Origin: Coriobacteriales bacterium
GTDB taxonomy: Bacteria; Actinomycetota; Coriobacteriia; Coriobacteriales; UMGS124
Assembly (NCBI GenBank): GCA_017515595.1
Contig: JAFWFL010000058.1
Location: forward strand, 1 to 37,010
Direction of reading: 5' to 3'
DNA: 37,010 nt
The translations under genes and the position numbers were made by a program. Every line of letters starts with the position of its first letter. Within the stretch, counting starts at the first letter, position 1. This document shows, piece after piece, positions 19,944 to 34,480 of the stretch. The notes beneath the pieces are model-generated. The model had not been told where the DNA came from and did not search any database. It was given only the letters and a program-made list of their open reading frames with translations.

Positions 19944-21257
19944 GGCAACTGTTGAGAATTGTTACAAATGGATACAGTCCGGTCATTACGGTATCTGTGA
20001 CGCTGTTAAACTTAACGACATAGACGGGCGTATTTATGTTACCGGTGGACTACTTGAATGGGAGCGCAATGGCACAAAGCAAGAAATACGCACATGGAAC
20101 GGAGAAGACCAGGCGAATTTTTACCGCCGTATTGAGCGTGAACTAATCGCCAACAAGTCAAACATAAACAGCGTACCACGCGATAGTGCAAACGATGCTC
20201 TTATGATTGTTGCAGGCGAACACAAGTTTAATCCTGTTGTTGACATGCTTGACAAACTACCTAGGTGGGACGGTCAAACCGCGCCATGTGATCCGTTTAC
20301 GCTCTTTCTTGGTGTAGAACCAACAGATTATAACAAACAAGTCGTATCAAATTTTATGCTTGGTGCTGTTCAAAGAGCATATGAACCAGGATGCAAGTAC
20401 GACTACATGATTATTCTAAGAGGTGCGCCGGGTATTGGTAAAGTACGTTTGTGCAACGGCTTGCAATGAATGACGAACTGTATACAGATTCTATAGTTGA
20501 CCTCACGGATGCGAAAGCATCAGAAGAAAGGGCATCAGGTAAATGGTTGGTTGAAATTGGCGAATTGTCTGCGTTATCAGGTAGCAAAAGCGTTGAAGCC
20601 ATCAAAGAAGCAATCACTCGCAGAAGTTGGGATGTGCGTTTACCCTATGACCGGCACACAACAAAAATATTACGCTCTTATGTACTCATTGGCACATCAA
20701 ACAGTGCTGGTATTCCAAACGACCACACGGGTGGCATAGCGCGACGCATGCTCCCTATAAAGTGCGGTGAGGTTGAGTGTTTCTCAGTGAGTGAATGGGA
20801 CGAGCAGGGAATAGACGAGATAATACAACAGGCATGGGCTGGTGTTATCTATTTCTATAAGGAATGTAAGCGAAAAGGCATACAGATTAAACCTACGTTA
20901 CCAGACTACTTATTGAATGACGCACAAATAGCGCGTGATGCAGCAACTATAGAAGACACAGAAGCACCGCTAATTCTAGAGTTCCTGGACAGGGCAAGAC
21001 ATGAGCACGGTGCTACTGGTTGCCCGCGTGTTTGTGTTCGCATGATAGCAGAGAACGCACTGGATATGTCGCCCGAGGAGTTCAGGCGAGGTTCTAAAGT
21101 AACTAACAAAATAACCGATATTCTGAACAATAAGGCTAAAGGTTGGGAATATGCAGGTAAGCAACGTGTCACATATAATAATAAGCAGTACGGCGTATGC
21201 AATACATGGGAGTATACAGCTTCACATGCGCCAAACATAAGCAACAAAGCAACATAA
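19936..21257 (+). CDS. VirE-family replication helicase/ATPase, frameshifted
   Basis: VirE-domain proteins are phage and satellite helicases, often fused to primases. The family signature runs WDGQ..., PGCKYDYMIILRGAPGIGK, then EIGELSALSGSKSVEAIKEAITRRSWDVRLPY, then VLIGTSN...TGGIARRMLPIKCG. The frame breaks in the Walker A motif: GGTAAAGTACG reads GKV, but one more A gives GKSTFVQRLAMND and joins the second frame at about 20443. With it the protein is 440 residues long. No primase domain precedes it. AGGAGG lies eight bases before the ATG. As written it would be cut at 177 residues, so it is either an error or a disabled replication gene. Confidence 0.85.
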
Positions 21258-28379: not shown

Positions 28380-28748
28380 TTTACGGAAAACGCTTTGGCA
28401 CAACTCAAACTTTACGCAATTGTCGGTGGATAAGATCTGGGTTTTCGTAAGGATGGGTGGATAAGATCTGGGTTTTCGTGAGGCGCTCTGCCACAGATCC
28501 TCGTTTTCGAGAGGATTTTTGGGCTTCTCGGCATCTTGCATTTTTAGTACGTAGGTATTTACCAGGTATATTGTAAAATGCCGAGAAACCCTTCTCTTCA
28601 AAATCCTCTCGAAAACGAGGATCTGTGGCAGAGCGTCTCTCGAAAACCCAGATCTTATCCACCCATCCTCTCGAAAAGGCAGATCTGCGCCAAAGAGCCT
28701 CACGAAAACCCAGATCTCATCCAACAACCATTGCGTAAAGTTTGAGTT
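28380..28748. repeat. Palindromic element built on a 31-bp period, copy A
   Basis: The TTTTCG/TTTACG boxes start at 28380, 28411, 28442, 28473 and 28504. On the other side the complementary CGAAAA/CGTAAA boxes start at 28610, 28641, 28672, 28703 and 28734. All steps are exactly 31. The halves are inverted around a core with TTCTCGGCAT (28525) and ATGCCGAGAA (28578). The consensus unit is AGATCTGGGTTTTCGAGAGG plus 11 variable bases. The outer ends (28402-28416 and 28734-28748) are perfect inverted repeats. No coding sequence is supported. Confidence 0.88.
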
Positions 28749-28775
28749 TTACCATTGATTAATTCTCAACATGAA

Positions 28776-28891: not shown

Positions 28892-30726
28892 TTATTTCTC
28901 AAGCCCAAAGCCGGCGTTTTGTGCGGCGCGGAGGCCGGCGTTGCGACCAAACGTCATGCAGTCGCAAATCGCGTTACCACCAAGACGGTTGTTGCCATGA
29001 ATACCACCGGTTACTTCGCCTGCTGCGAACAGGCCGGCAATAGGCTCTCCGTCTGCGGTCATTGCCTGAGAATTAATGTTAACACGGACACCGCCCATAG
29101 TATGGTGAACAGTGGGAACCTTCTTACAGGCATACCAGGGACCTTCGACTAACTGGACATCGTTTGAATTGGTAGCCTGGAAGCCAAGCGGGTCTTCAAG
29201 CTCACCGGCAACAACTGCATTGTAGGTATCAATGGAAGCCTGGAGCTTCTTGGCATCCATACCGGTTGCGGCTGCAAGTTTCTCAATGGTATCGGCAGCA
29301 ATAACGTTGCCCAGAGCAATCATGTCGCCCATGCGCTGTCCATCCTTGTCAAAGTCGGTCAGGTTGGGGTAGCGTACCTTATTAACAACAATCCAGTAAG
29401 TAGCGCCGGGCTGTTCAAAGATAGCCTTGCACAGGGTATCGCGCTTGGCGCCTTCGTTTACAAAGCGGTCACCGTCAACGTTTACAAACACACGGTTGCG
29501 GCCAGAGGTACGGACATCCTTCATAAGGCCGGTACCGGGGGTGCCGCATGATGAAGCTGGATGTCGGAGAGGCCAATGAGCTCTGCGCCTACAGCCTCTG
29601 CCAAACCGAGGCCATCGCCCTGTGCGCAGGGGTTGATGTTGGTGCATCCAATGCCGGAGTCAAGGGTAACCTCTGACCATACGCCGTCGTTGACTGACTG
29701 GCGGAACTCAATATTAGCGCCAAAACCGCCGGTAGCAAGCACTACAGAAGCTGCGTGTACTACAACCTCGGAGCCGCTCTTGTGTTCGCCGCGTACTCCA
29801 ATTACGGCACCATTTGCATCAGTGATAAGCTCAACAGCCTTGGTACCACCCACAATGGTTACCTTGTCGGGATACAGATCAAAGTAATCGCGGAAGGTAT
29901 CTGTATAACCAACACCGGCCGGCTTTGCGGTGTAGTGACTGCGCTCGCCAAGGGAGCCGGTTGCTGAGCTGACCTGCAGCTTAAATGCGCAGCCGAGGTT
30001 CTCGAGCCATTCAACTGATTCCATGGCATGATCAGTGAGGAAGTGAATAAGCTCGGGGTCGCCCTTTTCACCGCCACCGGTGAAAGTTGACTCGTAGAAC
30101 TGCTCAACTGAGTCTTCAATGCCCTGCTTTTCCTGACGGTAGGGGTCAACAGCATTAAGTGCACCGCCGGAAACGTTGGTGGAACCGCCAATGATGTCAA
30201 CCTTGTCCATAATGACAACCTTTGCACCGGCTTGTGCAGCGCGGATAGCAGCTACGCACCCGGCTCCACCTCCACCAACAACACAAACATCAGCGGTATA
30301 CTCGGCCTCGGGAACCACGTGCTCTGCTTCGCGATCTAAAAGATATGCATCAGCACCGGCCTGTGCTGCGCAGTCCTCAACGCCCAAAAGCAGGGCAAAG
30401 CTCGAGATGGTTGCGCCGGCAATGGTATCTACATTAAGAGACTGGTTGGCGATGATGGAGCGAGAGAGCTTGCCGAGAGCCCATGCGCCAACGCCGCGCG
30501 ACTCAAGGTTACCGGTTACATCAATATCTGCCAAAGCGCGCTCGGTAAATGTGCAGGTAACGGTAAAGGGAGCATTATGACCGTTAACGGTGGCCTGGTA
30601 TTTACCGGCAATAAAGTCACCGGTCTCATCTGCACCGGCGCTAACTGCTCCGGCCATGCATAAAGCGCTTGCTGCGCTTGCAATACCAAGGTCCTTAACA
30701 AAAGTTCTGCGATTCATCTTTTTCAT
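28892..30726 (-). CDS. Tat-exported FMN/FAD flavoprotein reductase (fumarate/urocanate reductase type), frameshifted
   Basis: A Tat signal (NRRTFVKDLGIASAASAL) is followed by an FMN-bind domain with the flavinylation site DTIAGATIS (T106). Next come the FAD domain (VCVVGGGGAGCVAA, 148-160) and active-site segments (RTSGRNRVFVN, HHTMGGVRVN, GNNRLGGNAICDC). The covalent FMN, attached by ApbE, passes electrons to FAD. The frame breaks at about 29550: ...DIQLH should continue CGTPGTGLMKD, which lies in the other frame. One added C (giving Pro) restores 611 residues. As written it would be truncated in the FAD domain. It is divergent from a membrane LuxR gene. The substrate is unknown. Confidence 0.88.
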
Positions 30727-33861: not shown

Positions 33862-33914
33862 AAATAGCAAAGAACTTGCCTTACGATAGTTTTCTAGATG
33901 AGATTCCGATATAC

Positions 33915-34390
33915 GTAAAACACTCTGTCACAGATCCGGGTTTTCGAGAGGATTAGTGGATAAGCTTGCTGTTTTCGAGAGGTTTGACGGATGAGATCCG
34001 GGTTTTCGTGAGGATCTGTGGATGAGATCTGGGTTTTCGAGAGGCGCTCTGCCACAGATCCTCGTTTTCGAGAGGATTTTTGGGCTTCTCGGCATTGTGC
34101 ATTTTTAATGCACAGGTATTTATCTGGTATTCTGTAAAATGCCGAGAAACCCTTCGCTTCAAAATCCTCTCGAAAACCTAGATTTGCGGCAGAGCGCCTC
34201 TCGAAAACCCAGATCTCATCCACAGATCCTCTCGAAAACCCGCATTTATGACAGAGCAACTCTCAAAAAACTGGATCTCATCCCACAATCCTCTCGAAAA
34301 CTCGGATCTGTGACAGAGAGCCTCTCCCAAACCTGGATCTCATCCAACAATCTTTCGTAAACCGGGAACCTCTCGCAAAGTGTGATTTGT
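33915..34390. repeat. Palindromic element built on a 31-bp period, copy B
   Basis: TTTTCG boxes start at 33941, 33972, 34003, 34034 and 34065. Complementary CGAAAA-type boxes start at 34171, 34202, 34233, 34264, 34295 and 34326. All steps are 31, and a further degenerate box lies at 34356. The ~90-base core (34070-34160) is near-identical to that of copy A and holds TTCTCGGCATT/AATGCCGAGAA and an inner TGTGCATT/AATGCACA hairpin. The unit consensus is the same as in copy A. Short ORFs in it rotate frame, because 31 is not a multiple of 3. Confidence 0.9.
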
Positions 34391-34480
34391 GCCATTGGCG
34401 CGCAACACCAAAAAGAGGTTATAGATGGCTGCTCTGGCAGTATTCTATTCAATTGGTTTCTGATTAGTGACACAAAAAAA

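Follow-up and report, generated by a model that had tools for sequence, protein, structure and literature searches.

The window (the whole 37,010-nucleotide stretch of DNA that was analysed) harbours two palindromic elements, copies A and B (Table 1), which belong to a family of about 20 palindromic elements, all of them intergenic, in one bacterial species. In copy B, a strict 31-bp phase is kept by the forward boxes at 33941, 33972, 34003 (1 mismatch), 34034 and 34065 as well as by the inverted ones at 34166, 34197, 34228, 34259 (2 mismatches), 34290 and 34321 (2 mismatches); a seventh inverted box (34369) is off phase, 48 bp further out. Direct reading and search thus confirmed the preliminary description of five boxes and then six inverted ones, at steps of exactly 31 bp, around a core of about 90 bases. 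The location assigned to the element (33915-34390) falls a little short of its real span; the outermost units are degenerate. The window contains 17 occurrences of TTTTCGAGAGG with at most one mismatch, whereas 0.64 would be expected, and none of 100 shuffles reached 17. A 504-nt stretch of copy B folds with -280.8 kcal/mol, compared to -141 +/- 7 for shuffles (z = -20), and a single strand is bound to give such an extreme energy because any mirrored array must fold so. The sole sizeable open reading frame of the element, a 121-aa frame spanning copy B, shows no Pfam domain. Copies A and B are 85% identical over 300 bp.

Table 1. Features of the two palindromic elements in the window.
Feature	Position	Strand	Basis or remark
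Copy B, whole palindromic element	~33895..34394	.	unit scan and inverted-repeat search; fold z = -20
Copy B, outermost (sixth) left unit, degenerate	33895..33925	+	in phase, weak, score 8.8
Copy B, left arm, five 31-bp units	33926..34080	+	PWM scan, every step 31
Copy B, left-arm unit starts	33926, 33957, 33988, 34019, 34050	+	consensus TGGCACAGATCccgGTTTTCGAGAGGnnnnn
Copy B, core	34076..34165	.	90 nt separating innermost boxes
Copy B, core inverted pair GGGCTTCTCGGCAT / ATGCCGAGAAACCC	copy B core		flanks ACCAGRTAAAT segment, read on - strand
Copy B, right arm, six inverted 31-bp units	34161..34346	-	unit scan
Copy B, right-arm unit 5' ends	34191, 34222, 34253, 34284, 34315, 34346	-	
Copy B, outer terminal unit TGGCACAAATCACACTTTGCGAGAGG	34364..34394	-	48 bp past preceding unit
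Copy A, whole element	~28396..28752	.	in-phase units: 3 on the left, 4 on the right; both ends carry a divergent outer unit
Copy A, core	28515-28604	.	unit and box scan

The unit profile gave a repeat length of 31 bp with TGGCACAGATCccgGTTTTCGAGAGGnnnnn as its consensus. In this type-1 unit, the information content is ~1-1.7 bits per position in TG, AGAT and most of GTTTTCGAGAGG and mostly 0.1-0.5 in the spacers; box positions are conserved across copies, while spacers are variable. A second box sequence, TGGCACAAACTCGASCGTTTGCACAACC, which occurs alone or within the first, keeps the same phase. Considering all loci, successive units follow each other at exactly 31 bp in 84 of 96 steps, transitions from type 1 to type 2 included, and elements carrying both unit types have type 1 outermost and type 2 innermost. 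Throughout the family, an arm consists of 2-7 units of 31 bp each. The outer edges tend to TGGCAC...GTGCCA, that is, a TG...CA terminus, with TGGCAC being the usual edge in the other copies.

When the genome (3.3 Mb in 134 contigs) was searched for the unit and the core by pattern, DNA and model searches, many further copies were recovered, so the element is not confined to the window. At least 18 palindromic loci with a recognisable core were found, along with a degenerate core at C110 and solo, half and decayed units; the census is a lower bound, since it is based on pattern and model searches. Five elements constitute class 1: copies A and B, contig C34 40715-41121, contig C79 68098-68487, and one whose two parts lie at the end of C133 and at the start of C57, two contigs that both terminate within the palindrome, as expected if assembly breaks down there. 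Decayed relatives of these elements were recovered in the same searches. The core measures 90 nt in all five class-1 copies (75-90 nt across the family), and core plus adjoining boxes show 95% mean column identity across the five. Mixed elements at C65, C105 and C20 revealed a second unit, TGGCACAAACTCGAcCGTTTGCACAaCCCGc, and a search with it uncovered mirrored elements of another class, which is the larger of the two (13 loci by core model in the whole genome). The class-2 core reads GCAAGGGTTTCTCCG...TTATTAAAANACCAGGTAATAA...CGGAGAAGCCCTTGC and has GGGTTTCTCGGC and the ACCAGGTAA segment in common with the class-1 core. Furthermore, the class-2 core model matches the core of copy B on the - strand (E = 3.4e-4), and copy A was also matched.

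Certain individual loci offer additional details. The same flank and outer units are present on two contigs, at C60 32159-32532 and C79 68425-68549 (L062, L066); the C79 element is complete, while the C60 version is interrupted after two units by foreign DNA, which opens a transposase-like reading frame. One of the units on C60 resembles a hybrid of two C79 units. These versions suggest that the population is mixed or that units have recombined. Four pairs of elements (on C79, C65, C132 and C88) lie 1-5 kb apart, whereas random placement of about 25 loci over 3.3 Mb would give about one pair by a rough estimate. The core-arm motif TTTCTCGGCATTTT is enriched genome-wide, with 54 matches (at most one mismatch) against four for the reversed control. 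Some of these matches fall inside genes; the sites include, for example, L033, L046, L048, L055, L056 and L059, as well as 34086-34148 in the window. At several intergenic sites the motif forms small outward-facing hairpins, TGCCGAGAAACCC..GGGTTTCTCGGCA, and it is possibly a REP-like repeat.

Among the genomes searched, the family is restricted to one species. Related genomes had been expected to carry the element, an expectation that failed in all relatives searched, including both genomes of the same family. With up to three mismatches, the unit pattern gave 49 matches in the host genome, and none of 396 others from the order had more than two, a near-control level. Of 99 other order genomes, none contains the strict double box; the second unit gave one weak match among 119, and the core model gave a single marginal match (E = 0.0068) among 149, which is about chance level. 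Across ~85,000 species, the box pair yielded 16 isolated single matches, which are attributed to chance since none of them has further in-phase units. Plasmids, phages and viral contigs returned no match to unit or core; a plasmid or phage origin was rejected, as neither unit class matches there. As no copies occur in the other genomes searched, the family is young or private as far as the data reach.

Over 200-360 bp the elements share 70-87% identity, but more than 60 bp outside them the flanks are unrelated, and the few matches there are short or beside paralogous flavoprotein genes. Since such alike copies with unrelated flanks are present in divergent, tandem and convergent regions, the element has spread as a discrete unit; the dispersal pattern is what copy-and-insert spread gives. 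Dispersal of this kind and inverted terminal arms with no recognisable coding capacity are the marks of a MITE, and long inverted arms built of tandem subrepeats are those of a foldback-type element. Against transposition, no consistent target-site duplication was found in 13 elements (the best is 4 bp with end slip), and the ends may be decayed. Nor did searches for rve-domain and IstB proteins in the genome yield a candidate transposase above the cut-off. No longer, gene-bearing version of the element was seen in the genome. The neighbours are ordinary genes (flavoprotein reductases, transporters, regulators) of no consistent class, adjoining the ~20 loci in every orientation, and the earlier suggestion of a partition or replication role is thus unsupported.

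A protein-binding array and a non-autonomous mobile element had been put forward as alternatives. The evidence fits the two taken together, because the dispersed copies with unrelated flanks consist of phased, position-conserved units. The family is best explained, with a probability of roughly 55%, as a species-private, non-autonomous mobile repeat of the foldback type, the arms of which are phased, putative transposase-binding sites. The units would thus be protein sites, the protein presumably a transposase and the movement a transposition. The units would be bound on one helix face by a transposase, or by an equivalent recombinase, provided in trans; with the bound units three helical turns apart, the protein could multimerise on each arm, join both arms and move the element as a block. 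The number of units may shift by slippage or unequal exchange inside an arm.

A host architectural or regulatory array is the less likely alternative that deserves the most serious consideration. Here, a nucleoid or regulatory protein would bridge the arms in a BIME- or insulator-like manner, and dispersed copies would be retained for that role, however they spread. Maintenance of a strict 31-bp phase despite divergence of the units to ~70% identity, the presence of two box types on one phase and the selective conservation of box positions are all in keeping with such a role. Nevertheless, absence from the two same-family genomes and from up to 396 genomes of the order is odd for a core host function, and the lack of a consistent orientation or class of neighbouring genes, as well as the many decayed and solo remnants, argue against it. 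A more doubtful proposal is that the mirrored, three-turn-phased arrays serve synapsis by an unrecognised recombinase or architectural protein, with helical register rather than sequence identity defining the site; such a protein would accept either of the two unit sequences, provided that the 31-bp phase is kept.

Transcription of the palindrome into a very long hairpin, acting as a 3' UTR structure, terminator or RNase III substrate, could account for the extreme fold energy and for the ordinary terminator-like hairpins that adjoin many copies. However, such a structured RNA is improbable in view of the pairing statistics. Core pairing amounts to 83.5% as against 83.4% in shuffles, with fewer double changes than in shuffles and hence no excess of compensatory change in the core pairs. 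Class-1 arms pair with their own partner no better than with the arm of another copy (4178 of 20000 permutations), while class-2 arms show a modest excess over swapped arms (32 of 20000). Moreover, Rfam provides no match for the element, and several copies lie between divergent genes. Conserved box positions, variable spacers, the lack of compensation and the arm-swap result therefore favour sequence-specific DNA sites over structured RNA, the conserved property being unit sequence together with phase. A protein would be expected to read these units from one face of the helix. Within an element, mirror-positioned units resemble each other somewhat more than under shuffled pairing (0.78 versus 0.74; 2 of 5000), so mirror symmetry is partly maintained, perhaps by conversion between the arms. 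Two narrower candidates were rejected: a terminator-only role, on account of the copies between divergent genes, and a known RNA, for which there is neither an Rfam family nor covariation.

Descent from an IS21-type transposon, since lost, whose ends had multiple transposase repeats, is likewise hard to credit. An IS21 parent was considered on account of the TG...CA ends and several terminal repeats, features shared with IS21-family ends, which carry at least two transposase-binding repeats each (PMC11208146). However, the genome gave no match to rve-domain proteins and one IstB-like hit below the cut-off, so the istA/istB pair was not found, and this candidate was rejected. Furthermore, IS21 ends have few repeats compared with up to seven here, the present family has no coding region, and plasmids and phages contain no matching ends. 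A CRISPR array was dismissed, as the units mirror each other across a core and the stretches between them, far from being unique, recur as variants of the same sequences. The preliminary view that the element is neither a CRISPR array nor a known insertion sequence stands as far as it was tested (Rfam, plasmids, phages, rve/IstB).

To our knowledge, mirrored arrays in which two unit types share one 31-bp phase are absent from Galileo, BrickBuilt and BOX; we know of no description of mirrored 31-bp arrays for BOX, which differs in sequence and layout, nor of REPINs with long phased arms. No bacterial report of mirrored arrays with two unit types on a 31-bp phase was found in the literature searched. 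REPINs and BIMEs are nonetheless similar in being short, inverted, intergenic repeats with many copies, and the inverted-pair motif of the core recurs as small hairpins elsewhere in the host genome. The Foldback/Galileo elements of Drosophila are alike in that long, internally repetitive inverted arms flank a short middle. The tandem repeats within the long inverted repeats of Galileo are transposase-binding sites, containing the sites for the THAP domain of the transposase (PMC3688188). Unlike the short-armed family described here (2-7 units), Galileo is a eukaryotic transposon of the P superfamily, and there is no sequence kinship. In Porphyromonas gingivalis, tandem repeats are harboured within intergenic MITEs, 23-nt repeats in BrickBuilt (19 copies, near species-restricted) and 41-nt repeats in MITE464/PgRS (PMC4596501); like Galileo, BrickBuilt is a precedent for the proposed reading and resembles the family in architecture. 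BrickBuilt, however, is a one-direction array flanked by a leader and a tail, with IS5-type ends, whereas the present family has two 31-bp arrays facing each other across a core, two unit types on one phase and no sequence kinship to it. The BOX elements of Streptococcus pneumoniae resemble the family as modular intergenic repeats with strong secondary structure, and are thought to be parasitic (PMC3049150).

The family is real, apparently undescribed and, among the genomes searched, private to its species; it belongs with the bacterial interspersed repeats or MITEs, its architecture being of the foldback type. If the transposase-site reading is true, bacteria own foldback elements in which helical phase partly defines the end, as predicted by models of multi-site synapsis. 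The ~20 natural copies, in which the arms have 2-7 units and the units are of two types, would provide a ready test set for addressing how site number and phasing govern the function of transposon ends or architectural arrays.

Regarding the genes around the elements, four copies (copy A and those on C34, C65 at 39431-39852, and C105) lie 3' of genes for FAD_binding_2-type or similar flavoprotein reductases, an adjacency that possibly reflects merely the large size of this gene family here. One flavoprotein reductase gene in the window (28892-30726) is split over two overlapping frames of 251 and 401 aa, likely by a frameshift or an assembly error. Elsewhere in the window, 20451-21254 encodes a protein with a VapE-like domain, which suggests that a phage satellite or island has left a remnant here.
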